Origin: an uncultured Pseudomonadota bacterium
GTDB lineage: Bacteria; Myxococcota_A; UBA796; SXON01
Reading direction: 5' to 3'
Length of the DNA: 64,000 nt
Assembly: GCA_903844155.1 (NCBI GenBank)
Contig: CAIMSU010000289.1
Coordinates: 1-64,000, forward strand
The notes under the pieces were generated by a model. It ran no database searches, was not told the DNA's origin, and worked only from the letters and a program-made list of their open reading frames with translations. Positions within the stretch are counted from its first letter, which is position 1; each line of letters begins with the position of its first letter. The position numbers and the translations under genes are program-made. Below are positions 4,092 through 28,940 of this stretch, piece by piece.

Positions 4092-5123
4092 ATGATCGAC
4101 GAACTGCAATTCGAAAAGCTGGACACCATCGAGACGGTGATCCGTCAACGCTGCACCCAGATCACGCACATCACCGTCCACGAGGTGATGGACCGGAGCG
4201 GCTACCCCCAGCTCGGGCGCATCTGCTTCAGCGGCGTGGACCTCCAGGCGTTCATCGAGCCCGACACCGACGACGGTGAAGACGACGACGACGAGGACCG
4301 CGACGACGATGGCGACGGGGCCGACACCGACGACGCCGAGTCTCTCGGCGATCTGGCCCGGATGGACAACGGCGTGACCTACGCCGTGCTCGCCGACGCG
4401 GCGATCCGCTGGATCAAGCACATGGCGGACCAGAACATGGTGGGCCAGCGCGAAGGCAAGTTCAAGGTGAACTTGTGGAAGGGCAAGTGCGACAAGGTGA
4501 TCTACAGCTCGCGCTTCCTCTGCACGAATACCGAGTGGGAGGAGCCGCCCGCTGCGGCCCCGTCGCCCACCGTGCCGCTGCCGACGCAGTACCCTGACAC
4601 CTCGCCCGATCCGCGCACCTGGCGGGCGCTCGGCGAGGCGTACCAGAACTTCGTCGGGCTCGTGCAGTCCAGCTACCAGCACATCGCGAACCTCCAGAGC
4701 GCGCACATCACGAGCACGGGTGGGCAGATCGCCCGGATGCAGCGGACGAACGAGAACATCGTCGGCCAGCTCACGAACCTGAAGATCGGGGTGTTCGAGG
4801 CCGAGTCCAACCAGCGCGGAGAGGACGGCGAGGGCCGCGTCGGCGCCGAGTTGGGCAAGCAGTTCATCGCGGAGCTGGGTGGCCTCGGCCGCGTGCTGGC
4901 CACCGCGAAGTTCGGCATGGCCCCCGAGATGATCGAGCTGGCCGACATCGTGAACGCCTCGCCCGAGCTGCTCGAAGCGATGAAGAACCCCGCGGTCAAG
5001 CGGATCCTGCGCGACGAGAAGACTCGCAAGGAGCTGGCAGCCCTGCTCATCATGGCGGCACAGGCCGGCGAGGCCCCCGCCAACGACCCCACCCCGCCGA
5101 CCGGCCAGTCCGCCGCGGCCTGA
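4092..5123 (+). CDS. Unknown protein with long acidic linker, first gene of a three-gene operon
   Basis: 343 residues. The ATG has GGAG seven bases upstream; the frame is open much further upstream only because of the IS and repeat composition. Layout: an N-terminal domain of about 55 residues, an Asp/Glu run (about residues 57-83), a second globular part with Trp/Lys-rich segments, a Pro-rich hinge (about 155-175), then a long helical region ending in an Ala-rich tail. No signal peptide or membrane segment, so cytoplasmic. Family not recognised. It is followed after 33 bases by a gene with a strong AAGGAGG site, and that gene also carries an acidic run, so the products probably act together. 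Confidence 0.7.
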   Translation: MIDELQFEKLDTIETVIRQRCTQITHITVHEVMDRSGYPQLGRICFSGVDLQAFIEPDTDDGEDDDDEDRDDDGDGADTDDAESLGDLARMDNGVTYAVLADAAIRWIKHMADQNMVGQREGKFKVNLWKGKCDKVIYSSRFLCTNTEWEEPPAAAPSPTVPLPTQYPDTSPDPRTWRALGEAYQNFVGLVQSSYQHIANLQSAHITSTGGQIARMQRTNENIVGQLTNLKIGVFEAESNQRGEDGEGRVGAELGKQFIAELGGLGRVLATAKFGMAPEMIELADIVNASPELLEAMKNPAVKRILRDEKTRKELAALLIMAAQAGEAPANDPTPPTGQSAAA

Positions 5124-5156
5124 TCCCGTCCCCGTTCACCCGAAAAGGAGGCTCCG

Positions 5157-5702
5157 ATGCCGGAGACCGCTACCCGTCTGCCCCGCGCCCGCACCCTCAC
5201 CACGCCCGAGTGGGCCCAGGTACTTCGCACCTTCTACGCCAAGAGCTTCGACACGGCGTCGGAAGACAGCTTCGTCGAGTCCGTGGAGGCGTTCTGCGCC
5301 CTCTCGCCCGACGAGCAGGCGTTCCACCAGGCGCACCTCGCCTACCGTCAGGTCCAGGGCCTCGACGACATCTACGGGTGCCTCCGGCGCATCGAGGCCG
5401 GGCTCCCGGCGCTCGATCCGAAGGCCCTCGGCGCGCTCCGGCACCTCCCTGGCATCCGCAAGGCGCTCGTCGTCATCGCGAAGGGCCAGGAAGAGATGCT
5501 CGACCTCCTCGAGTCCGGCGCAGGATCGGGCGGCGACGCCACGCGCGGCGACCGCGATGACGATGGCGACGACGACGAGGACGGCGAGCTGGCCGACGCG
5601 GTGGATGCCGACGAGGTCATCGAGAACGAGGACCACGGCGTGAGCGGGGGCGGCGCGCTCGTCCCCGAGGTGCTCCCGGCCCGCACCGTGGTGGTCCCGT
5701 GA
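5157..5702 (+). CDS. Unknown helical protein with acidic C-terminal region
   Basis: 181 residues, preceded by a near-perfect AAGGAGG ribosome site. The first 120 residues look helical and globular; residues about 131-159 are strongly acidic (GDRDDDGDDDEDG); the end is short and hydrophobic (ARTVVVP). No family recognised. It overlaps the next gene by GTGA, so the two are translationally coupled. The repeated use of an Asp-rich linker in two neighbouring genes suggests a shared partner that binds acidic surfaces, but this is inference. Confidence 0.7.
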   Translation: MPETATRLPRARTLTTPEWAQVLRTFYAKSFDTASEDSFVESVEAFCALSPDEQAFHQAHLAYRQVQGLDDIYGCLRRIEAGLPALDPKALGALRHLPGIRKALVVIAKGQEEMLDLLESGAGSGGDATRGDRDDDGDDDEDGELADAVDADEVIENEDHGVSGGGALVPEVLPARTVVVP

Positions 5703-6190
5703 ACGCCGCGTTGCGCGCCGATCCCGCCGCCATGCGGGTCAACCTCACCGTGCCGTCAACGGCGGTGCGGCTCGGGCCGTTCGCGTTCGACGGTCTCAAG
5801 GCGCTGCTCGGCGTGGACCTTGCCGACGTGCTCTCGTCCCTGATGATCGGGCCGAAGTTTGCGCGACCCGTCCTGGGCGGCGTCGTGGACGTGTACCCGC
5901 TCGCGATCCCTGACGGCGAAGGGCTCACGATCCCGATCAAGCTGTTCGGCGAGATCGGCTTCTACAACCTGCACTCGGCGCTCGTGCTCGTGGTGCCGAT
6001 CGCCGCGATGGACCTCGTGACGCCGCAGCTCGCCGCCGAGATCGCGTCGGGTGACGCGGCCGGGCCGAGGGTGCGCGCCGGGAGCAACGGTGGGCACGTC
6101 GCGGAGTACGCGGTCAGGTTGAAGCCGGGGATGCGGAAGGCGGTGCCGCTGGGCAGCTTCGGGGAGCTGGGGGTTGAGGCGGGGGCATGA
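5699..6190 (+). CDS. Unknown protein, third gene of the acidic-linker operon
   Basis: 163 residues from a GTG that overlaps the previous stop (GTGA). The protein is rich in beta-type hydrophobic segments (NLTVPSTAVRLGPFAFDGLKALLG; IPIKLFGEIGFYN) with no signal peptide. No family recognised. Position and coupling make it part of the same operon as the two acidic-linker proteins. The gene ends 112 bases before the next module, which has its own start. Confidence 0.65.
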   Translation: MNAALRADPAAMRVNLTVPSTAVRLGPFAFDGLKALLGVDLADVLSSLMIGPKFARPVLGGVVDVYPLAIPDGEGLTIPIKLFGEIGFYNLHSALVLVVPIAAMDLVTPQLAAEIASGDAAGPRVRAGSNGGHVAEYAVRLKPGMRKAVPLGSFGELGVEAGA

Positions 6191-8871: not shown

Positions 8872-9285
8872 TCACGCCGCCCTCCCCGCCGCCGCTTCCC
8901 CCGCCGGGTCCGGTGCCTTCGGGATCGCGCAGTCCTTGAGCCTCACCGTCAAGCTACGCCCGCTCACGCACTCCCCGACCACCACGAGCCGCTGCCCGCG
9001 CCGGAGCGCCGCGAGCTCGTCGAACGCGGTCTCCGGGAAGGAGCACGCGACCGCGCCGAAGATGGACGCCGGCATGTTCACCACCAGCGCGCCGGAGCTC
9101 GCCCGGTGGACCATGCCCACCTCGCCGGTCACCGACAGGAGCTGCCCCGCGAACTGGCGCTCGGCGGCGAGGCCGTTCTCCTCGAAGGCGGCGACGAGGT
9201 CGTCCGCGTTGATGGCGCGGACCAGCGGCTCGTTGGCGGGCCCGATCTCGGGGATGCTGGGATCTCGCGGATCAAGGATGCGCAT
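8872..9285 (-). CDS. OB-fold protein of the tRNA_anti-like type
   Basis: 137 residues from an ATG with AGGAG six bases upstream. The pattern of a helix, then LLSVTGEV...GALVVNM...AVACSF...LRRGQRLVVVGECVSG...VRLKDCAI fits the small OB-fold family known as tRNA_anti-like, often found on phages and islands. Such proteins are thought to bind nucleic acid or act as inhibitors; the exact role is unknown. It lies just beyond the iteron cluster, on the same strand as the VapE helicase, so it could belong to the replication module as a single-strand-binding accessory. A longer frame upstream runs into the iterons and is not used. Confidence 0.7.
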   Translation of the reverse strand: MRILDPRDPSIPEIGPANEPLVRAINADDLVAAFEENGLAAERQFAGQLLSVTGEVGMVHRASSGALVVNMPASIFGAVACSFPETAFDELAALRRGQRLVVVGECVSGRSLTVRLKDCAIPKAPDPAGEAAAGRAA

Positions 9286-9344: not shown

Positions 9345-9597
9345 GGCCACACCTGGCCACACCCCGGCCACACCTCGTGCTGAAGGTGTGGCCGCGAGTT
9401 ACGCGGCTTCACGGCGAAGTTCTCGGGGTGGCCACACCGGCCACACCTCGATCCACCACATTCCTTACGCGCGCGGGTGTGCGCTCCCGCGATGTTGGGA
9501 AAACAGGTGTGGCCGGTGTGGCCGGTGTGGACAACGCGCCTTGCACGCGGGTTCTGGCTGTCCACACCTCGAACGGGAGGTGTGGACAGGTGTGGCC
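9345..9597. repeat. Iteron cluster, probable origin of replication of the island
   Basis: Twelve copies of a 9-mer fill the gap between the OB-fold gene and the VapE gene (9286-9606 holds no gene). Exact GGCCACACC or its complement GGTGTGGCC: 9345, 9355, 9366, 9385 (reverse), 9430, 9439, 9506 (reverse), 9515 (reverse), 9589 (reverse). One-base variants GGTGTGGAC: 9524, 9560 (reverse), 9579. Left-half copies mostly point one way, right-half copies the other, facing a less GC-rich spacer (9448-9505, with TTCCTTAC and GGGAAAACA). Spacings of 9-11 bp match one helical turn. Location next to a primase-helicase operon supports an origin. Confidence 0.7.
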
Positions 9598-9606
9598 ACG
9601 CGCCGG

Positions 9607-10833
9607 TCACGCGACCTCGGGGGCGTCAGCGCGGGTCCACATCATCGCGCGACCGTCACCGACGCGGACGCGGCGCTTGGCGTACCCGAGGCGGGCGAGG
9701 ATCGAGGCCACACGCATCCCGTCGCGCTTCGTCTGCCTGCCGATCTCGACAGCCACGGCAGCGCCCAGCACGTCGGCGACCGTGAACGGCTCGCCGCGTT
9801 CGTCGGCCCATTTCTCGATGGGGGCCTCCCAGGCGTCCACCTCGCGGTAGGGCTCCGACGCCTCGACGCGCGCCTCCTCGCCCTCGGCGGAGAGCCACCA
9901 CGTCTCGTGCTGGTCGTACCGCCAGCGAGCCTCAGCCCAGAGCTGATCGCGCTCGGCCGCGAGCGCGTCGAGGTTGATCACCGTCACGGCGACGGGCCAG
10001 AACCGGCGGCTCCCGCTGGGGTCTCGAAGAAATTCGGGCTCGTTCGTGGTGCCGACGAACACCGTCTGCCGGGGAACGTCCACCGTGTTCCGCCCATAGG
10101 ACGGGCGGTAGTGGTCGATCTGCGCGCTGATGTACGCCTTCACCGCGCTCGTCTCGGAGCGACGGAGACTGTCCAGCTCCGCCAGCTCGAAGATCCAGAC
10201 GCCAGGGAGCTGCTGGTAGGCGTCCTTGCTCGCGAAGTCGATGGCGCTGTCGCTGAACCACTCCGGCCCGGCGAGGGTCGCGAACGCGCGGCTCTTTCCG
10301 ATGCCCTGCTGCCCTACGAGGATCAGCACGTTGTCCACCTTGCAGCCCGGTTGCATGACGCGAGCGACCGCGCCCACGAGGAAGCACCGGCCGAACTCGT
10401 GGATGAGCGGGGTGTCCTCAGCGCCGCAGTGCTCGGTCAGCCAGGTCTCGGTGCGGACCACGCCGTCCCAGACGAGGGCGTCGAGGTACTCCCGAGGGCC
10501 GTGCGTCGGGTGCTGGTTGCCGACGTGGCGCACCGCCTCGCCGACCAAGGGGGTTGAGGCACGAATTCCGTACATGCGGGCGATCTCCAGGTTGATGGCG
10601 GTTTCGTCGTCGTCGCGGACGGGCTGTCCATCGACGACGGTGCGGAGGCGGAAGTCGTCGCGCTGGCAGCGGCCGGTGAACTTGCGGTCGCCCTCCAGGA
10701 TCGTGACGAGGTTGAGGAGCGTCGCGAGCGGCACGCCGTCCTTGCCGGTCTCCAGCAGCTCGGCGACGGCGGGATCGGGCGCGACCGGGGTGACGCCGGC
10801 CACGTCCATCGAGGGCGGGGTGTCACTGGACAT
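9607..10833 (-). CDS. VapE-type superfamily 3-like replicative helicase
   Basis: 408 residues. The ATG at 10833 overlaps the primase stop by 11 bases. The AAA+ core of the virulence-associated protein E family is clear: Walker A GQQGIGKSR (about 174-182), Walker B VWIFELAELD (about 212-221), and TTNEPEFLRDPSGSRRFWPV (about 262-281), the family hallmark. Such proteins unwind origins of phages and phage satellites. The C-terminal part has a helical DNA-binding look (TKRDGMRVASILARLGYAKR). The gene ends ten bases from the iteron cluster, which it probably recognises or melts. The first 30 residues are Pro-rich and may be flexible. Confidence 0.85.
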   Translation of the reverse strand: MSSDTPPSMDVAGVTPVAPDPAVAELLETGKDGVPLATLLNLVTILEGDRKFTGRCQRDDFRLRTVVDGQPVRDDDETAINLEIARMYGIRASTPLVGEAVRHVGNQHPTHGPREYLDALVWDGVVRTETWLTEHCGAEDTPLIHEFGRCFLVGAVARVMQPGCKVDNVLILVGQQGIGKSRAFATLAGPEWFSDSAIDFASKDAYQQLPGVWIFELAELDSLRRSETSAVKAYISAQIDHYRPSYGRNTVDVPRQTVFVGTTNEPEFLRDPSGSRRFWPVAVTVINLDALAAERDQLWAEARWRYDQHETWWLSAEGEEARVEASEPYREVDAWEAPIEKWADERGEPFTVADVLGAAVAVEIGRQTKRDGMRVASILARLGYAKRRVRVGDGRAMMWTRADAPEVA

Positions 10834-11725
10834 CGACACCCCCACAGGCACCGTCGAGGAGGGCGTCGAGGAAGCCAGACCACCCGCACGTCTTCCGGTG
10901 GGCGCAGGCGGCTTTGCGCTTTCGTCTGGGGTCGAGCATGAACCATACCGAGGTGCGTCCGCAGGCCGGACACGGGATCTCCTTCGCGCTGATCGCGCCC
11001 ACGCGAGCACCCAGGCGCTGCGCGGCGCGCTCGCGGACCTCGGGGTCGTTGTTCAGCCTGAACTGCGCGACGCGCCGGGCCTGATCGACGCGCACCGGCA
11101 CCGGCGGGAGGGGGCGGCGCGGCGTTGGCGGGGCATCATCGTCGGGCACGACACGAGGCCCGGCGAGGACGGCGTCCACGTCGACGGCGTGACCGTCCCG
11201 ATGCTCATACACGGCCAGGTGCAGGCGCTCGGCGGGGCACGCTGGGATGTACCAGAGCCGCGCCACGTCGCGCGCCTTGCGGTCCGCGTGGCCCCCGAGG
11301 TCGGAGTCGAGCGCGGACCAGACCTTCGGGTACTCGCGCGGCCCGAGCGGGCGCGAAAGCGTGAGCACGACGCGAAAGCAGTTGTCGTCGTCGCCCGCGC
11401 TCTTGTGACTGAACGACGTGTAGAGGAGGTAGGCATAGCCGAGCCGCCGGAGGGCAGCGACGATGCCGCGCGCGACGGCCGCCGGGAGGTGGTCGAAGTC
11501 GAACACCAACGCCGTCACCCAGGTGACCCCGGCTTTCCCGCGTCCCGCGCCGTCCGAGTAGACGGCGAACGACAACGCGGGCGTACCCTTCTTCACGGCG
11601 CGCTCGACGTGGCGGCGCAGCGCGCGAGGCAGCGGACCTTGATCGGGTCGCGGGATCGCGTCCAGCTCGTTGTCGAAGTGGACGAACGCCACGACGTGCT
11701 CGCCGAGGTTGACGATGGCGCTCAT
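10823..11725 (-). CDS. Primase of the archaeo-eukaryotic superfamily with C-terminal zinc ribbon
   Basis: 300 residues from an ATG with GGGGAGG seven bases upstream, overlapping the preceding small gene by ATGA. FDFDHL (about 75-80) supplies the paired metal-binding acids, YTSFSH (102-107), FRVVLTLSRP (117-126) and ARLWYIPACP (155-164) follow the RepB/plasmid-primase pattern, and CPAC...C..H..C near residues 250-285 forms a zinc ribbon. It should make primers on the island's own DNA. Coupled to the VapE helicase by overlapping frames, the usual primase-helicase pair of satellites and prophages. A longer upstream frame through low-complexity sequence is not used. Confidence 0.8.
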   Translation of the reverse strand: MSAIVNLGEHVVAFVHFDNELDAIPRPDQGPLPRALRRHVERAVKKGTPALSFAVYSDGAGRGKAGVTWVTALVFDFDHLPAAVARGIVAALRRLGYAYLLYTSFSHKSAGDDDNCFRVVLTLSRPLGPREYPKVWSALDSDLGGHADRKARDVARLWYIPACPAERLHLAVYEHRDGHAVDVDAVLAGPRVVPDDDAPPTPRRPLPPVPVRVDQARRVAQFRLNNDPEVRERAAQRLGARVGAISAKEIPCPACGRTSVWFMLDPRRKRKAACAHRKTCGWSGFLDALLDGACGGVDVQ

Positions 11726-11874
11726 CGGCGACCTCCCCGGCGACCCTGGGGTCGGTAGGGGCACGGCGGCGGACCGACGTGGAGACCACGCGGGTCGAAC
11801 TTCGGCGGCGGCGGCTGCTTCTGCGGCGGCGTCGGACCCTTGGGGTTGGGCGGCGGGGGAAGGCGCTTCCTCAT
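11722..11874 (-). CDS. 50-residue Pro/Arg-rich small protein
   Basis: A very small frame with an ATG overlapping the preceding stop (ATGA) and a stop overlapping the primase start (ATGA). It is rich in Pro and Arg/Lys (MRKRLPPPPNPKGPTPPQ). Such double coupling is unlikely by chance, so it is probably translated. It may be a small DNA-binding or linker peptide, or may serve mainly to couple translation. No family recognised. Confidence 0.45.
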   Translation of the reverse strand: MRKRLPPPPNPKGPTPPQKQPPPPKFDPRGLHVGPPPCPYRPQGRRGGRR

Positions 11875-12098
11875 CGCGCACCCCCAGCGGCGACGGCGGC
11901 GGCCGCTTCTTCGCGCTCGCGGCGCTTCCATCCGGCGAGCACGCCAAGGAAGCCGCCGAGGTTGGCGACGATCTCGCGGCCGTCCTCCGGCCCGAGCTGG
12001 CGGGTGGTGCGGGGTTGGTATAGAGCAACTGCGCGATCTGCGAGATCACGAGTGCGGGACTCATCTTTTCGAGGACGCTTGGCGGTAACCACGAACAC
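11871..12098 (-). CDS. 75-residue small protein at the head of the replication operon
   Basis: Starts at a GTG inside the perfect palindrome at 12089-12111, and ends overlapping the next small gene. The C-terminal half (LGPEDGREIVANLGGFLGVLAGWKRREREE) looks like a real short helical protein. In a different frame, an ATG at the same place gives a plausible N-terminus (MECSWLPPSVLEKMSPALVI), so either the start is mis-set or an ancient frameshift joined two frames. Small genes here are candidates for a repressor or excision factor. Confidence 0.4.
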   Translation of the reverse strand: MFVVTAKRPRKDESRTRDLADRAVALYQPRTTRQLGPEDGREIVANLGGFLGVLAGWKRREREEAAAAVAAGGAR

Positions 12099-12154
12099 TC
12101 CATGTTCGTGGACGTGGCGGGAACTTCCGGTTCCTTTCTGGAACTCCGGGTTCC
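12089..12154. promoter_or_regulatory. Three palindromes in the control region of the replication operon
   Basis: A perfect inverted repeat CCACGAACA / TGTTCGTGG with a 5-base spacer occupies 12089-12111 and covers the first codons of the operon. Upstream of it are two copies of GGAAC-N5-GTTCC (12120-12134 and 12140-12154), 20 bases apart centre to centre, about two helical turns. Tandem, evenly phased palindromes just before the first gene are the classic layout of phage or island repressor operators. No promoter hexamers are clear. Confidence 0.6.
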
Positions 12155-12167
12155 TTTCACCGGCCGC

Positions 12168-14297
12168 CTACGCCGAAAGCCTCCACGTCATCGTTCCTTC
12201 GGGTTCGTAGGAGAGGTCCGTCCCCTTCTTGATCGTGTTCGCCAAGTGCCTTCCGACGCCGGGATGGCGCTTCTTGATGTTGGCGATGGCCTTGTCGACG
12301 GCCTTCCGCAGCCGGTCGCGGGCCCGGCGGAGTTCGGGTGGCTCCTCGCGTCCCCCGCCGCCGAGTTTGAGATCGGCGGCCAGCTGGTCCTCGATCCGCT
12401 CTCGCTCGATGCGGGCCCGCTCCGCCTCGTCCGGGTCGCCCAACGCCTCATCCTGCCGCAGTTCCTCGACTTTTTCCCGAAGCTCCCGAATTGCCTGGGG
12501 GTCGAGCGTCGCACCAATGCCCGGGACGCTCGCGGGTGGGGCGTCCGAAGGCTGGTCGCCGCGAGCGATGGCCTCCAACGCAAGCACACCGAAGGCCTGG
12601 CGCGGGTGGGCCAGCAGGAGGGCCAGGTACCGCATCCCGTCTGACGATTCGACGAGGCGGGCTTTCGTCCCCTTGAGGCCGACTACCCATGCGGCCCCGC
12701 CGTCGAAGAACGTGTCGCGGGCGAGCGCCTTCTCTTCGAGCACTGCGGTGACCGCCGCAGCCTCCGCATCGGGAGGTGGCGTCGGCGAGGGTGAAGTGGC
12801 GGGCGGCGCGTCCGGCGGCCCCCCGAACCGCCGTTCGCTCGCCTGCAAGCCGGTGCTCAGCACGCGAGCGAGCAATGAGCGCGGGTGAACCGAGCCCGTG
12901 GCCAGGCCCGAGATCCGCGCGGCAGTGAGCCGTCCCATGACGCCCATCACCATCTCGCCCTGACGGCGATGCAGATGGACGACCTCCTCGAGCATCGCGT
13001 CCTGCGAGCGTCCGTGGAGTTCGGCCAGCGCCGGCAGCGCGTCGCCGATCTCCCCGAACGTGGACTGGAATTCCCGAGGCGACACGATCCGGCGGAACGT
13101 CTCCGCGACGTTGACGTAGCCGAGCGCCAGCTTGACCTGTTCGGGCCTGACGAGCGCGTCCGCGAAGAGGTCGAAGTCGTACATCTCCTCGGGATCCTCG
13201 TCCGCCAGCCCTGCGGCGTGCATGGCGAAGCGCCGGTCGACGCATTGGGAGCAGATGCCGCAGAACGGGTGCTGGGTGGTCGCCCAGCGGACGTGCGCGC
13301 AGCTCCGCGAGTGCCGGAGCAGCTGCCGGGCCCCGGCGTCCCGGATGCGCTCAGCAACCTGTTGGCGAGTGAGGAGCTGGTAGGGGTTCTCCGCGACGAA
13401 GGGCTCGCCGATCACCGCGCCGAGCAGCGCTTGAAATCCCACGAGAACCCGTGGGTGAACCGTGCGCGTCGCCCGCGCCCCGAGGATCTCCCCCGCGATT
13501 GGCAGGTTCAGCGCGATGACCCCGTTTTCGTGGAACTTCACCCTCCGCTTTCCGGCGAACCACGCAACGGCGCCCGCGATGGCCGCGAACAACAGAGAGC
13601 GGGAGCGCTGGCTGTCCTCCTTGCGTAGGAGCTCGTCGTGCTTCTGCACGTCGAGGATCACATGGCACGGGGCTGCTCCGACGGGTGCCAGCCGTTGCAG
13701 CTCGGTCACCAGCTCCCTCTGAATGCTCGCCATCTTGGAGGACGAGCCGTGGCTGACCAGCAGCACCTTCCTCTTCTGCACCAGCGCGTGGTCGATCGCT
13801 CCGCCGAGGCTGTCCATGCCGCCGGAAAAGAGCAGCACCTCCTCGAACTGATCGAACGGGATGAAGGTCCGGCCGTTGGTCGGGGGCAGGGAGTCGATGA
13901 CCCGTCCCGCGTCCCCCTTCGCGGCCACGAATTCGAACCGGTAGCTGTCGTCGGACAGGAACCCGGCGGTGGCCTCCAGCAATCGCCGGACATCGGGCGC
14001 GTTCCAGAAATCCGGTTCCGCGACCGGGATCACGAAGCGGAAGTCGCGACGCCAGGTCGCGCCGTTGTCGAGCTTGCCGGGATCCCCCCGGAACGTGGCC
14101 CCGTCCGCTCCGAGGATGAACGACGAGATACAGATGAACTCGCGCAGTCGAGGGGGCAGCTTCCCGGTAAAGCCCTGCTCCATCCCCTCCAACTTGATGG
14201 ACATCTTCCGCCAGTCGCCATCGCCCAGCCCGATCCGCAGCGCGTTCGCGGGCGCGTCGGCATGGGTAGCGCCCGCGCATAGTACCCAGCGGGTCAT
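12168..14297 (-). CDS. QueC-like ATP-dependent enzyme of a defence operon (QatC/Cap9-like)
   Basis: 709 residues, starting on an ATG that overlaps the preceding stop. A PP-loop LLFSGGMDSLGG (about 155-166) and four cysteines (C333, C346, C349, C352 in HPFCGICSQC) match 7-cyano-7-deazaguanine synthase QueC; the zinc site is intact. An N-terminal extension of about 150 residues and a long C-terminal helical region (ending in a Lys-rich domain) are not in housekeeping QueC. Related long QueC-like proteins occur in the Qat system (QatC) and type IV CBASS (Cap9), where deazaguanine is attached to a protein N-terminus. Last gene of the defence operon. Confidence 0.75.
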   Translation of the reverse strand: MTRWVLCAGATHADAPANALRIGLGDGDWRKMSIKLEGMEQGFTGKLPPRLREFICISSFILGADGATFRGDPGKLDNGATWRRDFRFVIPVAEPDFWNAPDVRRLLEATAGFLSDDSYRFEFVAAKGDAGRVIDSLPPTNGRTFIPFDQFEEVLLFSGGMDSLGGAIDHALVQKRKVLLVSHGSSSKMASIQRELVTELQRLAPVGAAPCHVILDVQKHDELLRKEDSQRSRSLLFAAIAGAVAWFAGKRRVKFHENGVIALNLPIAGEILGARATRTVHPRVLVGFQALLGAVIGEPFVAENPYQLLTRQQVAERIRDAGARQLLRHSRSCAHVRWATTQHPFCGICSQCVDRRFAMHAAGLADEDPEEMYDFDLFADALVRPEQVKLALGYVNVAETFRRIVSPREFQSTFGEIGDALPALAELHGRSQDAMLEEVVHLHRRQGEMVMGVMGRLTAARISGLATGSVHPRSLLARVLSTGLQASERRFGGPPDAPPATSPSPTPPPDAEAAAVTAVLEEKALARDTFFDGGAAWVVGLKGTKARLVESSDGMRYLALLLAHPRQAFGVLALEAIARGDQPSDAPPASVPGIGATLDPQAIRELREKVEELRQDEALGDPDEAERARIERERIEDQLAADLKLGGGGREEPPELRRARDRLRKAVDKAIANIKKRHPGVGRHLANTIKKGTDLSYEPEGTMTWRLSA

Positions 14298-15070
14298 TTC
14301 GCGCCCAGCCGAAGCTCGGCGCGCAGCTTCTTCATCGAGTAGCCGATGAACCGGGCTGTGCGCTCGGGCGTCAGGTCGCGCTGGAAGCGCGCCTTCGAGT
14401 ACCAGCCCCCCGCGAAGGTCTCGACGATCTTCGACGCCTGCCGTGCGTGGGTGGCGACCGCGTCCTGGAACGCGCGTTGCTCAGTGGCCGTCTCGAACCG
14501 CTCACCGGAGCCGACGTGGAGGGGCAGCTCGCGGCTGACGTAGTGAACGAGGGTCCGCTCGGTCAGGCGCGCGAAGAAGTCTCGTGCAAAGACGCCGAAC
14601 TTCTGCTCGGTGTAGATCTGGGCTACTGCCGTGCGCGCGGCGTCTGGGTTCAGACCGAACAGGCCGGGGGACCGCTCGAACGCGGCCGCGGCGACCGTCT
14701 CCATCGCCGACAGACGGGCCATCTCTGCGAGGTCCGAGCGCGGCTGTCCGAGCGAGGTGGCGAACGTGTCCACGGCTCGCCCGAGCGCGGAAGCCAGCTC
14801 GGTGGACGACGGGCTGTCCGCCACATCCATCCCGAGCGCGCGCAGGTTGGCGGCGAAGTCGCCGACACGGGCAGCGTCAGGGAGCTGGGTGAGGAGCCAG
14901 ACGGTGCGGACGACGACCGGGTCATCGGCTGCGGCGAAGAACTGGCCTTCGGTCGCGTCGAGCGTCGCGTCGGCGACCTGTTCCGGCGAGCCCCCCTGTC
15001 CGACAAGGTTGATGACCTCGATCCAGCGTTTGGTTCGAGGAAGGCCCCCGCCAAGCCGGTTGTGCCCCAC
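14294..15070 (-). CDS. QueC-partner protein with N-terminal Met-Gly-His-Asn
   Basis: 258 residues from a GTG; the N-terminus reads MGHNRLGGGLPRTKRW. No signal peptide or membrane segment; mostly helical, ending KKLRAELRLGAK. It overlaps the QueC-like gene by ATGA, so the two are made together. After Met removal the chain would begin with Gly, the residue modified by QueC-like enzymes in type IV CBASS. I infer it is the substrate of its neighbour, like QatB in Qat, but sequence similarity to QatB cannot be judged here. Confidence 0.65.
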   Translation of the reverse strand: MGHNRLGGGLPRTKRWIEVINLVGQGGSPEQVADATLDATEGQFFAAADDPVVVRTVWLLTQLPDAARVGDFAANLRALGMDVADSPSSTELASALGRAVDTFATSLGQPRSDLAEMARLSAMETVAAAAFERSPGLFGLNPDAARTAVAQIYTEQKFGVFARDFFARLTERTLVHYVSRELPLHVGSGERFETATEQRAFQDAVATHARQASKIVETFAGGWYSKARFQRDLTPERTARFIGYSMKKLRAELRLGAK

Positions 15071-15102
15071 CTACGGCTCGCCGCGGGCGACGCGCGGTGC
15101 CG

Positions 15103-17817
15103 TCATGCCTTCCACCCGCGTGCCAGCCATTTCCGGCGTTCCAACTGATTCAGCACAGTCGAGCAGGATTCCCACGCTACGCGCTCGACCTTCTCGTGGC
15201 ATCGCACCTGGAAGGGGTGAACGGCGGGCACAGAGTCGATCGTCTGCTTGGCCTTCGCGATGTCCCCGAGGGCGACGTTGACCCAGGCGTCTTCGAGCAC
15301 GTCGGGGAGCTGACCGAACATCGACGAGATGTCCTGGAGCCGCTGCGAGAGGAGCTGGTGGACGCGATCCTCGACGGACTCCTTGTAGCGGAGGTTGTAA
15401 ATGAGCACGGTGTCGCGGAGCTGGCCGATCCGCTGGATACGGCCCTTCCTCTGCTCCAGCCGGGTCGGGTTCCAGGGCAAGTCGAGGTTGATCAACGTCC
15501 CGAGGCGTTGGAGGTTGAGGCCCTCGCTCGCGGCGTCGGTCCCGAGGACGAGCCTGATTGTTCCGGCCTTCACCCTCGCCTTGATCGTCTCTCGTGGCGT
15601 GGCCTGGAAGACTCCGCCGGTCAGAACTCCCGAACGTGCGCCACCCGCGTAGTAGGCAATCGGCTCCAGAGGCAGCTCGGCGGTGAGCTGCTCGCCGAGC
15701 GACTGGATCGAGTCGAAATACTGGGAGAACACGATGCAGCCCAGGTCGAGCCAGTGCTCTTCAAGGAGCAGCTTCCGCACCATCAGGTACTTCGGATCGC
15801 CGCTTTGGTCCGCGTTCAGCAAATCGACAAAGAGCTGTAGTTCATCGCGTTCTTTCCCGGTGAGGGCGCGGCCCTGGCCAGCGGCCTTGGCCTCGGACGT
15901 CGCCTCCTCGGCGAGGTCGTCTTCCTCCCCGCCGTCCTCGATCGCCTCCCACTCGTGGAGCATCCGAAGCGCAGTGCTTCGCCCGGCCTCGATGGAGCTC
16001 CCGAGGCGGCGGAGCAGGAGGGTCTTCAGGAACCCTGCGGCCTTCACGCGTCCGCCCAGGAGCTTGCAGAAGCTCTCGGCCTGTCGGTACGCATCTTCGA
16101 GGTACGGCGGCAGGGGGATCGCGTCCTCGTCACGCTCGCCGCGAAGGTCCACCGACACCGGCTTCAGGTACGGGTCGCCGGTCTCAGGGTCGATGGTGTT
16201 TTCGAGGTAGTCCCGGCTGCGTCGGATGATGTGCCGGATCACCGGGTTCAGCTCGACGCCGAAGGTGCGCGCCAGCCTCCCGACGCGGCTCCAGTCGGCA
16301 CCGTTGAACACCTCGTCGACCATCTGGTTCGGAACGATCACGTCGTCGCCGATGCCGAGCCGGCCGCGGAGCACCCTGATGTCCTGGTGCTCCTCTTTGG
16401 CCGGGAGGGGGTTCCGGATCCACTGCCAAGCGTCCTTCGGGTCGGCCGGTAGCGGCTCCTTCCCCATGATCACCGGGAGAGCGCGACCGGCGTTCTGCCA
16501 TTGGCTCCACCTGTTTCCAAGCACCCCGACGCGCCCGCGCGCGAGGAGATCGAGGAGGTCGTGAGCCTCGACCGGGTTCATCTGCACCGGCGTCGCAGTA
16601 GCGAGGAGAAGGCTGTGGGTCTGGACCGCAAGCTCTTGCAGGAACGCCATCAGGTTGTTCGGCGTGGCCTTCTCGTCCTCGGCACCTTGCCCGAGGTTGC
16701 GGCGACGGGCACGGTGGGCCTCATCGACGACGACGCAGGCGTAGTTCTGCTTCTTCAGGAACTCGGCCGAGGGGGACTTCGCCGAGATCAGCCCGTAGGA
16801 CACGATGCCGATCCGCCGGGGACAGGCCGCGAGCCCGGCCGGGCCGACCGCCGCGTGCTCGATGCCGTTCTCGTCCACCCACTGCCGCCCGTTCCACACC
16901 GCGCTCGGCACGTCGAGCATGTCCGTAAGCTCGCCTTGCCACTGCCAGATCAGCGTCTTCGGAGCGAGGACGAGGACCGGCTTGTCCGTGTGCAGCGCCA
17001 TGAGCTGCGCCGCCATGCCGAGCTGGATGGTCTTGCCCAGACCAACCTGATCCGCGAGCACGAACCGCGCGCCCTCCGCGGTCAAGTGCGCCTCGAACGC
17101 GCGCTTCACAAAATACTTCTGGTGCTCCCAGAGCCCGACCTCCTTCCGGTAGACCGGGGCCTCGACAATGGCTGCGGCCGGGTCGGCATCGGTGCGCCAG
17201 CTCGCCACGTCGGGGATGACCGACCGCTGGGCGATGCGGCCGATGTCCTCGACGACGAAGTCCGCGAGGTCGCACGCGTCGCCGTGGTTCCAGAGCGCGT
17301 CGAACTCCTCCTGCACCCACGTCGCCGCTTCGGGGGATTCGTCCTCCCAGATCAGCTCGTAATGGAGCTGCCAGCCCTCCCGCGTCTCGTTCGCGCTCCC
17401 GAGAAACGTCGTCTGTCGTCCGTCGGCCATCGTGATCACGCCGGCCTTGCCGTGAAGGAGCCCGAACCGCTCGTGGGGCAGGACGCGGACGCGCAGCTTC
17501 CCGCTCCGCAGGAACCCGTACAGGCGCGTGAACCGAAGCTGCGCGGGAACACCGAATTTCTCCGGCTCCGAGCCGCACCACTCCTGGCGCATCGCAACCT
17601 GGGCGGCCTTCGCCGTCGCGACATCGTGGGGGTTGAGGTGCGAGTTGCACACCACCCGGATCTGCCCCGCCACCGACTCCAGCGCCTCCCCGGCCATTTC
17701 CAGCACGGAAGAGCTGAAGTAGCCGGCGACTCGATCGTACCGCTGCGCCCCGGCGAGCCGGGAGGTCAGGAAGGAGGCATCGAGCGGCGAGCGCCGCGAG
17801 GAGAAGCGGTTGATCAC
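15103..17817 (-). CDS. PLD-SNF2 helicase of an anti-phage cassette
   Basis: 904 residues from a GTG four bases after the methylase stop. The N-terminus is a phospholipase-D-like domain with one half-site: H122 and K124 in LHGKAG, then GSAN (about 140). Superfamily 2 helicase motifs follow: ADQVGLGKT (about 255-263), VVVDEAH (about 362-368), LLATATP, and a C-terminal GRIQRIGQ. The protein should translocate on double-stranded DNA and may cut or remodel it. This PLD plus SNF2 layout recurs next to DUF1156 methylases in defence islands. Confidence 0.85.
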   Translation of the reverse strand: MINRFSSRRSPLDASFLTSRLAGAQRYDRVAGYFSSSVLEMAGEALESVAGQIRVVCNSHLNPHDVATAKAAQVAMRQEWCGSEPEKFGVPAQLRFTRLYGFLRSGKLRVRVLPHERFGLLHGKAGVITMADGRQTTFLGSANETREGWQLHYELIWEDESPEAATWVQEEFDALWNHGDACDLADFVVEDIGRIAQRSVIPDVASWRTDADPAAAIVEAPVYRKEVGLWEHQKYFVKRAFEAHLTAEGARFVLADQVGLGKTIQLGMAAQLMALHTDKPVLVLAPKTLIWQWQGELTDMLDVPSAVWNGRQWVDENGIEHAAVGPAGLAACPRRIGIVSYGLISAKSPSAEFLKKQNYACVVVDEAHRARRRNLGQGAEDEKATPNNLMAFLQELAVQTHSLLLATATPVQMNPVEAHDLLDLLARGRVGVLGNRWSQWQNAGRALPVIMGKEPLPADPKDAWQWIRNPLPAKEEHQDIRVLRGRLGIGDDVIVPNQMVDEVFNGADWSRVGRLARTFGVELNPVIRHIIRRSRDYLENTIDPETGDPYLKPVSVDLRGERDEDAIPLPPYLEDAYRQAESFCKLLGGRVKAAGFLKTLLLRRLGSSIEAGRSTALRMLHEWEAIEDGGEEDDLAEEATSEAKAAGQGRALTGKERDELQLFVDLLNADQSGDPKYLMVRKLLLEEHWLDLGCIVFSQYFDSIQSLGEQLTAELPLEPIAYYAGGARSGVLTGGVFQATPRETIKARVKAGTIRLVLGTDAASEGLNLQRLGTLINLDLPWNPTRLEQRKGRIQRIGQLRDTVLIYNLRYKESVEDRVHQLLSQRLQDISSMFGQLPDVLEDAWVNVALGDIAKAKQTIDSVPAVHPFQVRCHEKVERVAWESCSTVLNQLERRKWLARGWKA

Positions 17818-17820
17818 CCG

Positions 17821-20739
17821 CTACACCGAGTCGTTGCGGAGGGCGCCGGCGAGGAGGCGGGCACCCTCAGCGTCGGCCGTCCAATGGGGCAGCGTCATCC
17901 CGAGCCTCGAAAGGTAGTCAAGAATCCCGATGACGAGCATGCGCTTCGGCCAGTAGTCGGCCAACCCTTCGCGCAGGTAGCCCTTGCCGACTTGAGCGTC
18001 CGCTGCGCGCACCGTCTCACGCACGGCGAACAAGAGGGCGCGCATCGTGGACGCCCCGAAGCCGGCGTTGCCCAGATCGCGCGAGCCGAACTCGGACGCC
18101 GTCCTGATGCGCGTCTGGTTTACCTTGTTCGTTTCGATCAGCCCTTTGTAGTCCTTGACGCGGAATCCTCGGGCAAGCTCAGTGTACACGCCCGAGCGGT
18201 GCTCTCCGTGGGTTTCAACCTCCACGGCCTTGAGATAGAGGCGCTCCTCTGGGCCGAGTTGCTTCCAGTGGTCACCCCCAAAGCCCCTCGGAATCAGAAA
18301 GTCGCACGCGGTGCGCACGGCGTCCGCGATCAGCTCCTCGACCGGGTTCCTTTCCCCGGCCTGCCGGACGCGCGTGAGCTGGTCATGCACGTCGATGTCC
18401 TCGATGCCCTTGAACCGCGTGAGCACTCGAAGCGCAGCGGCGTAGGCGGCGAGCTGGTAGTCGGCGTCCCCGAAGCTGGGATCGTCTTTGTCGTCCAGCG
18501 ACAACATCGACGCAAGTTGGGAGCGAACCTCGTCCTCGACTTGCGGGTGAATCTCGTCGAGGAACGCCGTCTCTGCGGAGGTTTGCTTTCGTAGAACAAG
18601 GAGAACGGTCCCCTGAACGTAGTTGCCGTCCTTCAACGCGCTCGTCGTCTCCGTCGCGATGCACCACGCGGCGGACACGGCCAAGCCCGCTGCCCAGAGG
18701 ATCACTGCGAGATCGGCCCATACTCCAGCGTCCTGGTGGGTGAACATCACCACCTGTCGTCCATTGTCCGGCATCTTAGCCGTCAAATTGCGGTAGGTTT
18801 CGACCATTGCCCGCCGGAAGGTCGCCGGATCTCCGGTGACCGCAAGCGCCCGGCGGGAGTCGGAGTACCAGCCAGGAAAGGAGTCACGAATATGTACGGC
18901 GTACCAAGCCAGGAAATACTCGGTGAGTTCGTGATACATGATGGCGTCGGCATACGGCGGGTCCGTGATCCAGTAGTCGCACTCTTGGTCAATCTTGCGT
19001 GCGTCGCTCGGCACAATCGTCGATGTTCCCGCGATGTCCACTGGCGTCACACCGAACCTGACCGCATCTTCGAGCGCGTCAAGGCCGCGGGCGGCGTAGT
19101 TGTACATCGTGTTCAACGCCTGATTGCTGAACGTGCCTTCGGACTTGTCACCCACGGTGCGCAAGTGCCAACGGCAAAGACGGGAATTGTGGTCGGCGCA
19201 CCTGCCGAGCGCGAGCGCACCAACCATGCGTCCAAGTGGGTCCGAGCTGCCAAAGATCCGTGCGGTGGCCTCGGACATCAACCCCAGCATCAGGAGCTGC
19301 CGAGGCGTGTACAGGTGGTGCCACCACGTCCATCCTCGGGTCCGGATCGGCTCGTCGGTTTTCGCGCCCGGGGTGATCAGCTGGTTCGGGATGAACCCGG
19401 CCCGCTGCCAACGCTCGAACCGCTCGGCGAGCAGCGTCCGCACCTTCGCCTCGCGGGCCAGATCCTCCGGGCCCACGGAGCAGTAGTGCCTCTCCATCTG
19501 CGGCTTGTCGTCTTCATCGACCCAACGCTCCACCCAACGGATGCAGTACAGGCGCTCGTAGAATGGCTCCCCCGGTCGGCCTTCGATGTCCTCTCGCTCC
19601 CACCGTCGCAGCCCGTTTGCGAATCCCCCTTCACCGCGGCGATCGCCGCGGACCATCGACATTGGGGACTCGACAGCGCAGTGCGGGCAGACGAGCCGGG
19701 CGTCACGAACGCTTCCTTCACGATGGCGCTCGTACTCGTCGGGCGCGAGATCGGACTGAATCTCGATGCCGAATCTACGCGTCGCGTTGTCGGGGCGGAG
19801 GATTGCGGCTGCGCGATACTTGTCGCTGACGCACCAAGTCCCTGAGAGCGGAACGATCCAGGCGCATTCTGGACACGCGACCTCGACGCAGTACAGGAAT
19901 GCGTCGGCCCGCCACGCCGCCTCGTTCGTCTCAATCGCCCAGTCCGTGAACTGCCCGCTTACATCGGCCCATAGCCGTTCCTGCGCGGCCTCGATGCGCG
20001 GCCCCGCGTCGGCGCCTGCGCCCGCGACGTGGAGCGCGGCCCAGCTCATGAGAGTCGCCATCGGATTCAGGTCAGAACCCAGTGCGGAACACCCGATTCG
20101 AGCGGCCTCGAAGGGCACACTCCCGCCTCCGCAGAAGGCATCGCCGACCCGCGGCCTGCGCCCGAACCGCTGGTGGCCCAACTCGTCTACGAGCGCCGGG
20201 ATCGATGTGACCGAGGTGCCGAGGTGTCGGTTGATGCGTGCCCACGCAGCCGCGCTGGGACCAGGGACGTGCTCCGGGCGGCCACTGTACCCGAGGCGTT
20301 CGTCGTAGGTCATGCGCGAAAAGACGAGCTTCTGGAGTAGGTCGCGGTCCGCGCGCGTGGCACCCCGTTTCAGCTTCGGCTTCTCGTTCGGCTCCACGGC
20401 TTGAAACGATTTCGCTCTCTCCGCGGGGTGGAGCAGTCGGTACACTTCGGCGAGCGGAATCGGCTTCGAGCGGCGAAGTTCGAGCCCCTCATCGTCCATC
20501 GTCATCAGGGCCTGGAACACCGCGCGATCGGACGCAGGATCCGATGTAGAAGGCAGCAGGAGGCCGAGGACGGTCGCCCGTACCAAGACCAGCGGTTTGC
20601 GGCCCCACCACTTCCCAAGCCCGGTCAGCGTCTGCCCGTTCTTTGCGTCCCGCTCGCCGTAGCTCTCCTTCGAGAGCTTGGAGACGGGAAACTGGGTCTC
20701 GATAAAGCTCGGCGCATTCTTCCAGTCGATAGCGGCCAT
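17821..20739 (-). CDS. DUF1156 adenine-specific DNA methylase, anti-phage associated
   Basis: 972 residues. The N-terminal WWGRKP (about 44-49) is the DUF1156 signature. An SAM-binding FCGGGS (about 202-207) and a catalytic DPPY (593-596) mark an N6-adenine methylase with the motifs split by a large insertion that carries CPEC (289-292) and CPHC (351-354), likely a zinc site for DNA recognition. Neighbours (DUF499, DUF3780, PLD-helicase) are the known partners of this family. Methylation probably protects self DNA. The gene starts 18 bases after the DUF3780 stop, same operon. Confidence 0.88.
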   Translation of the reverse strand: MAAIDWKNAPSFIETQFPVSKLSKESYGERDAKNGQTLTGLGKWWGRKPLVLVRATVLGLLLPSTSDPASDRAVFQALMTMDDEGLELRRSKPIPLAEVYRLLHPAERAKSFQAVEPNEKPKLKRGATRADRDLLQKLVFSRMTYDERLGYSGRPEHVPGPSAAAWARINRHLGTSVTSIPALVDELGHQRFGRRPRVGDAFCGGGSVPFEAARIGCSALGSDLNPMATLMSWAALHVAGAGADAGPRIEAAQERLWADVSGQFTDWAIETNEAAWRADAFLYCVEVACPECAWIVPLSGTWCVSDKYRAAAILRPDNATRRFGIEIQSDLAPDEYERHREGSVRDARLVCPHCAVESPMSMVRGDRRGEGGFANGLRRWEREDIEGRPGEPFYERLYCIRWVERWVDEDDKPQMERHYCSVGPEDLAREAKVRTLLAERFERWQRAGFIPNQLITPGAKTDEPIRTRGWTWWHHLYTPRQLLMLGLMSEATARIFGSSDPLGRMVGALALGRCADHNSRLCRWHLRTVGDKSEGTFSNQALNTMYNYAARGLDALEDAVRFGVTPVDIAGTSTIVPSDARKIDQECDYWITDPPYADAIMYHELTEYFLAWYAVHIRDSFPGWYSDSRRALAVTGDPATFRRAMVETYRNLTAKMPDNGRQVVMFTHQDAGVWADLAVILWAAGLAVSAAWCIATETTSALKDGNYVQGTVLLVLRKQTSAETAFLDEIHPQVEDEVRSQLASMLSLDDKDDPSFGDADYQLAAYAAALRVLTRFKGIEDIDVHDQLTRVRQAGERNPVEELIADAVRTACDFLIPRGFGGDHWKQLGPEERLYLKAVEVETHGEHRSGVYTELARGFRVKDYKGLIETNKVNQTRIRTASEFGSRDLGNAGFGASTMRALLFAVRETVRAADAQVGKGYLREGLADYWPKRMLVIGILDYLSRLGMTLPHWTADAEGARLLAGALRNDSV

Positions 20740-20757
20740 GTACGGACTTCCGGGAGG

Positions 20758-21396
20758 TCAGGTCGCGGCGCGGCGCTTGGGCCGGGTCGCGGGGGGCGTT
20801 TCAGCCTCGTTGGGCTCGGAGAAGAGCGCCAGGTGTCGAGGCTGGGGGAGGAGGGAGGGGTCGGAGACAGGGTTGTCGGTGAGAGCGTACCGCACCGCGA
20901 CGCGCCATCCACGGCCGCGCCCCTGGATGGCGTGGCCGGTGGCGGCACTGGTCATCGTGTAGAGCCACCACCGCTCTTCGGGGGCCAGGCCGAGCCAGTT
21001 CTGGATGGCGACCGGGATGCGGCCGGGATCGGCATCCTCGATCGCCCAGGCAAGGAGCACCAGCTCCTTGCCGAACGACCGGGACAGCGGCACCTTGCCC
21101 ACCTTCCACTGGCCCGCCTTGCCCCCGACCTTCCGCAGCCGGGCGTTGAACTCCTGCCGGACGGCCTCCGCGATCGCGTCCCAGCGGTGCCGGTCGAGAG
21201 AGGCACGGATGATGTGGTCGCCGCTCATGGCGTAGGTGAGCTGATCGTCCTCTACCGACCCCGACCACGACAGGTGCTCGGTGATCGTCACCTCAGCGCG
21301 GTTGCCGTTCGGCACCCACAACAAGAAGTGTTGCTCGGACTCCTCGGGGGAGAAGCCGAAGCCGAGGGTGGCAGCCCGCGCGCTCACTGCTCCCAT
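20758..21396 (-). CDS. DUF3780 protein of the anti-phage cassette
   Basis: 212 residues, with the pattern FGFSPEESEQHFLLWVP...VPLSRSFGKELVLLAWAIED...WWLYTMT, matching the DUF3780 family that accompanies DUF499 and DUF1156 proteins. Biochemical role unknown; always found with the ATPase and methylase, so probably an adaptor. Two starts are possible: ATG at 21396 (13-base overlap with the DUF499 gene) or GTG at 21387 overlapping its stop (GTGA). Confidence 0.8.
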   Translation of the reverse strand: MGAVSARAATLGFGFSPEESEQHFLLWVPNGNRAEVTITEHLSWSGSVEDDQLTYAMSGDHIIRASLDRHRWDAIAEAVRQEFNARLRKVGGKAGQWKVGKVPLSRSFGKELVLLAWAIEDADPGRIPVAIQNWLGLAPEERWWLYTMTSAATGHAIQGRGRGWRVAVRYALTDNPVSDPSLLPQPRHLALFSEPNEAETPPATRPKRRAAT

Positions 21397-24300: not shown

Positions 24301-24488
24301 GAGAACCGGCGGAATGCCTCTCGCAACAGGGTTTTCATCCCGTCCGTGGCGAAGTTCTCGCCAAAGAACTCGTCCGCATTGATGCGCTCGCCGGGGGCCA
24401 GCAGGTCCGTCAAATCGAGGACCGTGTCTCTCTTCGCGGCGTCGAACACGCTCGCGCGGGGCTTACAAGCATCAAGGAGCGACTTCAT
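21384..24488 (-). CDS. DUF499 AAA-type ATPase of the anti-phage cassette
   Basis: 1034 residues. AMGGGKTHNL (Walker A, about 76-85) and KLILIDELPPYL (Walker B, about 168-179) in the arrangement of DUF499 ATPases. The large remainder is helical, with a beta-rich part near the C-terminus (FEDAGGTRVRLLSAPTATVR) and a final DUF499-type domain. These ATPases are thought to sense or process foreign DNA. First gene of the leftward six-gene operon; 118 bases separate it from the divergent HhH gene, so a shared control region is likely there. Confidence 0.85.
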   Translation of the reverse strand: MKSLLDACKPRASVFDAAKRDTVLDLTDLLAPGERINADEFFGENFATDGMKTLLREAFRRFSGDSPHGVFTLTQAMGGGKTHNLIALGLLAKHPELRKAVIGDAYTATGLGKVKVLGFSGRESDAPLGFWGSLADQLGKKELFKDLYTPLQPPGQGAWINLLKGEPKLILIDELPPYLVGAKGRTIGDTNLAVLTVTALANLFVAVGKEELSNVCVVITDLRANYEEGSEQIQKLLKDLQDETTRSALQLSPVQANNDDLYNILRKRLFGSLPSEAEIDEVAQGFAAAVREARQMEITSASPEQFAAAVKQSYPFHPAIRDLYARFKENPGFQQTRGILRLMRVMLSRMYDPDTGWAKGRYLVAPFDLDLNNQETTGQIDLINNSLTNSIPHDIAANGQAVAELMDFNRGGTDASDVCKLLLVSSLSNVSNATLGLTESEVIHYMCAPGRDVGRLRHEVLSQLGSAAWYLHQGRDGRLFFKNTQNVVAKLQTLARACNPELMRRELRKRLEEMFAPALKDCYQHLYVLPAIDEIQVGADRVALVIYEPHAAPQVGADIHPDLRTYYDQLEFKNRVGFLTGSKETLQSLLTVAAESRAIETIIGEMDADKVPDKDPQRQEALKLQDRIQVRLLSAARETFTQLWFPSDTGLRIADFTMEFKDNVYKGEQQVRAALTQKQKFTEEVSGETFKKKVEQRIFTQREMQWAEIKRRAATTPKWQWHRADALEKLKDDLVGKQQWRENGNYVDKGPFPPPCTELRIKDGERNPETGVVTLRLTPVNGDTVYAEIGAKATAASTKIDHTVPYDTTEVKISFLCVDSSGKHATGEAVEWTKPAVLRAGVFEDAGGTRVRLLSAPTATVRYTTDGSEPRHAGGVYTDPFAVERPALVLAVAEKAGVYSPTLRFDVPRDGGTGPKLDPARPVTWKRGHSPKGTKDTYDFLARVKKHQARLVLVQVYLTRENTSDAWAELNLGERLHVTAEVIESAIENVRPVVEGDAISIDVSAGKLLFPTGQLLLDWIAEAKTTLKSGEWEQ

Positions 24489-26055: not shown

Positions 26056-26063
26056 CCCGTTGT

Positions 26064-28905: not shown

Positions 28906-28940
28906 GAGGGCGGTGTCCTAGGCCTCTAGACGATGGGACC
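28865..28940 (-). tRNA. tRNA-Glu (anticodon CTC)
   Basis: 76 bases including an encoded CCA. Acceptor stem GGTCCCA/TGGGACT (7 bp with one G-U), D-stem GTCT/AGGAC, anticodon stem CCGCC/GGCGG around CTCTCAC giving anticodon CTC, T-stem ACGGG/CCCGT, discriminator A. Sits downstream of gltX on the same strand, and is the probable integration target of the island. Confidence 0.95.

Follow-up and report, generated by a model that had tools for sequence, protein, structure and literature searches.

A mirror-arranged cluster of twelve iterons beside a VapE helicase-primase operon is a probable replication origin of a Myxococcota defence island

Results

The window, i.e. the whole stretch of 64,000 nucleotides that was analysed, carries a dense cluster of short repeats (iterons) next to the gene of a VapE-family helicase, and further along a primase, defence genes and a large serine recombinase. 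The features, with coordinates in the window, are as follows.

4104-6190, plus strand: three-gene block, converging on the proposed origin
8872-9285, minus strand: OB-fold (tRNA_anti-like) protein, just beyond the proposed origin (PF12869, E=8.3e-10; start chosen by eye)
9345-9353, minus strand: iteron 12, GGTGTGGCC, left arm (on the plus strand), outermost
9355-9363, minus strand: iteron 11, GGTGTGGCC, left arm
9366-9374, minus strand: iteron 10, GGTGTGGCC, left arm
9385-9393, plus strand: iteron 9, GGTGTGGCC, inverted copy of the left arm
9430-9438, minus strand: iteron 8, GGTGTGGCC, left arm
9439-9447, minus strand: iteron 7, GGTGTGGCC, left arm, innermost
9448-9505, no strand: 58-bp spacer, proposed unwinding site or sites
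9506-9514, plus strand: iteron 6, GGTGTGGCC, VapE-side arm, innermost
9515-9523, plus strand: iteron 5, GGTGTGGCC, VapE-side arm
9524-9532, plus strand: iteron 4, GGTGTGGAC, VapE-side arm
9560-9568, minus strand: iteron 3, GGTGTGGAC, inverted copy of the VapE-side arm
9579-9587, plus strand: iteron 2, GGTGTGGAC, VapE-side arm
9589-9597, plus strand: iteron 1, GGTGTGGCC, VapE-side arm, outermost, adjoining the VapE stop codon
9607-10833, minus strand: VapE-family helicase, proposed initiator (Rep) (PF05272, E=1.2e-79; start chosen at the ATG at 10833)
10823-11725, minus strand: archaeo-eukaryotic-type (AEP) primase by predicted fold, with a C-terminal Cys/His zinc motif (PHROG, AF2, Foldseek, alignment)
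12168-24488, minus strand: defence cargo between recombinase and primase (PADLOC and Pfam)
12168-14297, minus strand: QatC-like gene, with a neighbour gene at 14294-15070
15103-24488, minus strand: PLD-helicase, DUF1156 methylase, DUF3780 and DUF499, consecutive, with matches to PADLOC models for a single candidate defence set
24997-26289, minus strand: possible nuclease of the PD-(D/E)XK kind, judged by eye (weak PADLOC match to PDC-S26, E=0.0034)
27244-28905, plus strand: large serine recombinase (PF00239, PF07508, PF13408), frame ending inside the tRNA-Glu
28865-28940, minus strand: tRNA-Glu(CTC), proposed integration site, as suggested by the recombinase overlap and by relatives

The replication genes

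The VapE protein matches PF05272 with 267.3 bits, against a curated cut-off of 25, and its AF2 model (pLDDT 90.6, from a 35-sequence alignment) is predicted to fold like PriRep1. Foldseek aligns the model with 7pds_A (PriRep1 with double-stranded DNA) at a TM-score of 0.79 and E 1.7e-31, and VIA-align does so with Z 34.6 over 381 residues at an rmsd of 3.5, the next best match having Z 14.6; the model thus shares over its length the fold of the solved member of the VapE-type self-loading helicases (PF05272). The last 70 residues of the predicted structure make up a winged helix, with the order HHH-EE at residues 336-401. The origin-binding domain of P4 alpha is absent from the Foldseek and VIA match lists of this fold, which is uninformative either way. 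The protein encoded upstream, whose gene overlaps the start of VapE by 11 nt, is an AEP-type primase by its predicted fold. Its PHROG matches, obtained with a longer ORF (10823-12160), are to helicase-primases and primases, the best Foldseek match of its AF2 model (pLDDT 80.2) is 6zp9, the AEP domain of S-2L PrimPol (E=9.4e-8), with modest TM-scores among the fold matches (0.34 and 0.52), and the C-terminal Cys/His motif is invariant in 10 sequences. On the other side of the cluster, the OB-fold gene starts 60 nt past the last iteron, on the same strand as VapE, and is retained in two relatives (L041/L063 and L062); its product might serve as a single-strand binding helper.

The iteron cluster and its mirror layout

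The cluster is intergenic, lying between the stop side of VapE (gene end 9607) and the start of the same-strand OB-fold gene at about 9285. Nine exact copies of GGTGTGGCC and three of GGTGTGGAC occupy positions 9345-9597, the three variants being one identical word, and all 12 copies of GGTGTGG[AC]C in the 64-kb window fall within these limits. When one mismatch is allowed, the count over the whole window is unremarkable (34 observed, 28.4 expected), and it is the clustering that is unusual: at the frequency found in the rest of the genome, a stretch of 253 bp would hold 0.004 exact copies, and the Poisson probability of at least nine is 4.5e-28. The single 9-mer is not enriched genome-wide (131 copies, compared with 142 of the reversed word as a control), and all five tandem pairs of the iteron word in the 8.13-Mb genome (375 contigs) lie in this cluster. 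The density elsewhere in the genome, which the original prediction had named as one of its tests, revealed no second cluster.

Along the coding strand of VapE the iterons are oriented < < > < < < on one side of the spacer and > > < > > > on the other, with steps of 10, 19, 36, 9 and 9, then 67 across the spacer, then 9, 45, 19, 11 and 10. On the plus strand the left arm reads -,-,-,+,-,- and the right arm +,+,+,-,+,+, i.e. each arm holds one inverted copy. Measured outwards from the spacer, the arm offsets are 0, 9, 18, 54, 73 and 83 on the VapE side and 0, 9, 54, 73, 84 and 94 on the left, and the copy at 54 is the inverted one in both. Four of the five outer sites coincide between the arms within 1 nt and in sense, which random layouts equalled in 162 of 200,000 cases. 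Relative to the published text descriptions of PICI and SaPI origins, the mirroring of two six-repeat arms is a new detail. The inter-iteron sequence of the two arms is identical at 18 of 40 positions, and because of this it is possible that the arms stem from an old inverted duplication. The spacer has 60.3% GC compared with 68.4% for the window, which places it only at the 12.8th percentile, and consists of two shoulders of 50% AT (9450-9469 and 9490-9509, the latter running a few bases into an iteron) around a GC-rich core (9470-9489, 15% AT). The original prediction had thus counted the nine exact and three one-base-variant copies in 253 bp correctly, had named the helicase and primase neighbours that the PF05272 match and the AEP-type fold now bear out, and had seen that left copies mostly face one way and right copies the other; its less GC-rich spacer stands as an average but not for the core. 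In the related locus L013, the spacer contains CCCAACATT, an inverted repeat equidistant from both innermost iterons, which is imperfect in the window.

The island around the cluster

The recombinase scores below the NCBIfam cut-offs of the Ccr models (CcrB 86.3 bits, cut-off 900; CcrA 59.8, cut-off 700; CcrC 19.7, cut-off 900), and its matches to NCBIfam XisF/Ccr are likewise under cut-off. A recombinase match (E<=1e-4) occurs in 14 of 47 fetched stretches, and in six of these 14 (L065, L070, L073, L078, L079, L085) the frame terminates within a tRNA or tmRNA, while in L071 and L075 it runs past the end of the stretch; in an earlier set, 10 of 17 VapE stretches held a match. Among the cargo genes, the QatC-like protein is extended by a long additional C-terminal part and has a small neighbour, and no match to QatA or QatD was found among the proteins scanned. 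The three-gene block is also found by tblastn in L062 and L041/L063 and partly in L064. Judged by its gene order, the related island in G047 is built on the window's plan with different cargo: a recombinase 45% identical to the window's ends in a tRNA-Val, and is followed by primase, VapE, an origin with the same iteron word, the OB-fold gene and the three-gene block, ordered as in the window, and a type I restriction system and an RtcR-like regulator lie between recombinase and primase. The window's own genome holds another island built on this plan (L085, 4253-14845, contig C79), whose recombinase frame ends inside a tmRNA.

From the cluster to the tRNA-Glu the distance is 19.3 kb; the opposite end of the island lies beyond the contig, which starts at base 1 of the window. 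No copy of the tRNA-Glu 3' end of at least 14 nt was found in the window, the genome holds a single copy of its last 20 nt, and seven recombinase-RNA loci yielded no att repeat of at least 11 nt. No empty site was found, the sequences after tRNA-Glu in two genomes of the same genus matching neither each other nor the window. One of these post-tRNA sequences (L059, 3457-4384) has 199 matches in the window's genome and belongs to a large dispersed repeat family.

Concerted iteron change between the window and its relative L013

The three nearest relatives (L013, L014, L015) retain repeats 3' of VapE. In L013, whose VapE is 74% identical, there are again 12 iterons, all oriented as in the window, and the steps are the same except for the spacer (67 in the window, 93 in L013) and the last step (10 and 9). 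The L013 words are GGTG[CT]GTCC or GGTGTGGAC, and a site-by-site comparison shows agreement at 89 of 108 iteron bases; from the window to L013, position 7 changes from G to T in 11 of 12 iterons and position 5 from T to C in 6 of 12. Such concerted change of dispersed sites, a new detail, is what a shared binding protein would be expected to enforce. L014, treated with L041 as one locus (VapE 60%), has the same iteron word as the window and the register 36, 9, 9 on one side and 9, 45, 19, 11 on the other. Homologous islands with primase-VapE and no repeats would have refuted the original prediction; L013, L014 and L015 keep the repeats, and L016/L064, one contig (47%), has none adjoining VapE. 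In L064, ten GGGGTAGCG-like copies stand at 4287-4528, 3.9 kb 3' of VapE and adjoining a homologue of the gene block, and this iteron cluster seems to have moved.

Repeat clusters 3' of VapE in genomes, viruses and plasmids

VapE homologues were collected from 21 of 141 related genomes, along with seven from the window's own genome and seven from named genome contigs. Of 41 tabulated loci, 36 were usable, their sequence including the stop codon and continuing for 200 nt or more after it, and five (L008, L017, L020, L030 and L037) were dropped. A cluster was called where no more than 2 of 200 dinucleotide shuffles equalled the 8-mer clustering seen within 300 nt on the 3' side of VapE. Significant 3' clusters were present at 26 of the 36 loci, compared with none of 33 5' flanks and none of 36 gene ends; the 36 include the near-copy loci L018/L021/L039 and L007/L012/L040, and the word that clusters at L011 resembles coding sequence. 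Ten loci fell below the cut, among them L009, L010, L019 and L027 with no cluster 3' of VapE, and L022, L025 and L033 with a few copies by eye. On viral contigs (49 VapE loci found, 47 listed, 46 usable; at most 1 of 100 shuffles), 32 of 46 loci have a 3' cluster and the controls gave 0 of 41 and 0 of 46. A tandem-pair pattern, tried on the viral contigs, returned 11 pairs, each isolated and lacking a VapE match, and was treated as chance.

The words vary by lineage, for instance GGTTGGGCC, GGTTGTGAC, GTCTGACGG and GATCGGACT, and iteron similarity tracks VapE relatedness (Mantel r 0.55-0.58, with words picked by eye at 29 loci). The core repeat is, as far as these loci indicate, common to close relatives only, and each VapE lineage carries its own. 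The expectation that the repeats would recur beside primase-VapE homologues elsewhere is therefore upheld for the clusters and not for the word itself. We rejected the C-terminal domain as sole carrier of specificity, as iteron identity follows the ATPase domain and the C-terminal domain alike (partial r 0.30 and 0.32; same 29 loci).

For arm spacing and dyad symmetry, L011, L033, L034, L027 and L115 were removed by eye (low-complexity or coding words), and the totals exclude the group to which the window itself belongs (L006, L013). The summed dyad symmetry of the 26 other iteron families is 55, compared with null means of 42-46 and a maximum of 52 in 500 draws per null under three nulls; taken singly, the symmetry is clear in the window, L013 and L031. 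A fixed arm spacing was found in 8 of the 26 families (null 4.4-5.0, p 0.04-0.10) and is weakly supported as a universal rule; we reject it as such and keep it only for the window's group. At L093, two differing clusters surround one VapE, a palindromic GGTGCACC on the 5' side (11616-11776) and GGGAGCAC on the 3' side (9662-9930).

The natural Gluconobacter plasmid pGO128, circular and 4,340 bp long with five genes listed, has a VapE 37.6% identical over 95%, the sole replication gene listed in a PLSDB gene table that is incomplete. Directly after this gene, as in the window, stands a repeat cluster, here of eight TAGTGCTG-like sites; pGO128 differs in its iteron word, in its asymmetric layout and in listing neither a primase nor a large serine recombinase. 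Clusters also lie 3' of the VapE-type primase gene of Marinobacter phage PS3 and, beyond one further gene, of that of Pseudomonas phage vB_Pae_U5.

Discussion

The alpha-crr system of phage P4 has an iteron-type origin that is recognised by the winged-helix part of its primase-helicase. The P4 iteron words, which we take to differ from those of the island, belong to a system with a fused alpha protein, whereas primase and helicase are here separate, overlapping genes. The likeness lies in an iteron-type origin and, as proposed here, in its recognition by a winged helix. P4 is also mentioned in the passages of PMC6092414 that deal with PICIs.

According to these passages, PICI origins lie immediately 3' of rep and always comprise an AT-rich region with an iteron set on either side, a plasmid made of rep and ori was able to replicate in E. 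coli, and a size of 12-15 kb served as a screening criterion (PMC6092414). Passages of PMC7581432 describe that the SaPI Rep reads iterons 3' of its gene via its C-terminal domain, and that in SCC the repeats bound by the helicase Cch2 likewise follow the helicase gene on its 3' side. The comparison with PICI origins that had been proposed at the outset, extended here to SaPIs, gives agreement in place and layout, as far as those passages describe them: the primase adjoins a Rep helicase, the origin is immediately 3' of rep, the initiator has the VapE/PriRep1 fold, and two iteron sets surround a spacer, with AT-richness only mild. The island differs from PICIs and SaPIs in its large serine recombinase, in the GC-rich spacer core, in that no helper phage or packaging genes were identified for it, and in size, as the 19.3 kb from origin to tRNA-Glu alone exceed the PICI range. 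With SCC elements, as described in passages of PMC7581432 and PMC6222049, the latter covering islands with serine recombinases, it shares a large serine recombinase, a helicase-primase operon, an iteron origin 3' of the helicase and variable cargo. It differs from SCC in having VapE instead of Cch/Cch2 (PF05272 alone is found in the helicase, and not the DUF927 of Cch), an AEP primase instead of CCPol-MP, a recombinase under the Ccr cut-offs, and a recombinase gene that abuts and overlaps tRNA-Glu instead of an insertion in rlmH. The organisation of the island resembles that of PICI/SaPI origins and its mode of working would be that of SCC, yet by the membership features compared it belongs to neither.

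We propose that the cluster serves an integrated mobile island as its replication origin, where the VapE helicase encoded by the island itself would bind, a reading to which we assign a probability of about 0.86. The clusters 3' of VapE at 26 genomic and 32 viral loci support the original suggestion of an island origin beside a primase-VapE operon; its corollary, replication of the island once excised, is an inference. In the proposed mechanism, the serine recombinase would excise the island from tRNA-Glu as a circle, and VapE, as a self-loading initiator helicase, would bind the iterons via the winged helix at its C terminus. Two VapE hexamers could be seated on the pair of six-iteron arms, facing apart across the spacer, the AT shoulders next to the innermost iterons would melt, and the helicases would load and unwind bidirectionally, while the co-transcribed AEP primase would make primers and the host polymerase would complete replication. 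Counting against this reading are the mildly AT-rich spacer with its GC core, the 10 of 36 loci that fail, the L064 cluster 3.9 kb off, the correlations that do not single out the C-terminal domain, the weak support for a fixed arm spacing across families, and the att repeat of at least 11 nt and the empty site that were sought and not found.

The missing second att copy, and the imperfect form in the window of the dyad CCCAACATT of L013, would also suit a decayed island, in which the origin is genuine by descent and no longer works; we consider this unlikely, as all 12 iterons and the VapE, primase and recombinase reading frames are intact. Less likely still is a regulatory role, in which the repeats would serve not as an origin but as operators through which a repressor or activator controls convergent or downstream genes. 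The intergenic place and the same-strand OB-fold gene (8872-9285) starting just past the last iteron would permit this, but twelve mirror-arranged sites over 253 bp exceed usual operators, the clusters stay 3' of VapE in phages, plasmids and islands despite differing next genes, and the iterons change in concert with the VapE lineage. Equally improbable is a defence device in which helicase-primase and repeats sense or copy DNA in place with no replication of a circle, for although defence genes surround the locus and passages of PMC10061031 raise a defence role for helicase-primase pairs on serine-recombinase islands, the VapE-repeat unit occurs on the natural circular plasmid pGO128 and in tailed phages, and the replication block is constant between islands while the cargo varies.

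The origin reading concerns a VapE-linked origin of a known general type, in a host group and an island type for which no description was found in the open-licence literature. It adds Myxococcota defence islands to the satellite/cassette type of replicon and explains how such islands could gain copies or spread. More tentatively, and with somewhat less than an even chance of being right as a whole, these islands may represent a Myxococcota lineage of defence-carrying cassettes that use a large serine recombinase to enter tRNA or tmRNA genes and replicate from a strictly mirror-symmetric 6+6 origin seating two back-to-back VapE hexamers, with diversified iteron-VapE pairs forming a readable recognition code. 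The differing VapE-iteron pairs, together with the one pair, window and L013, whose 12 sites all changed in concert, provide material on DNA recognition by VapE, and the mirror 6+6 layout renders the two-hexamer loading model directly testable.
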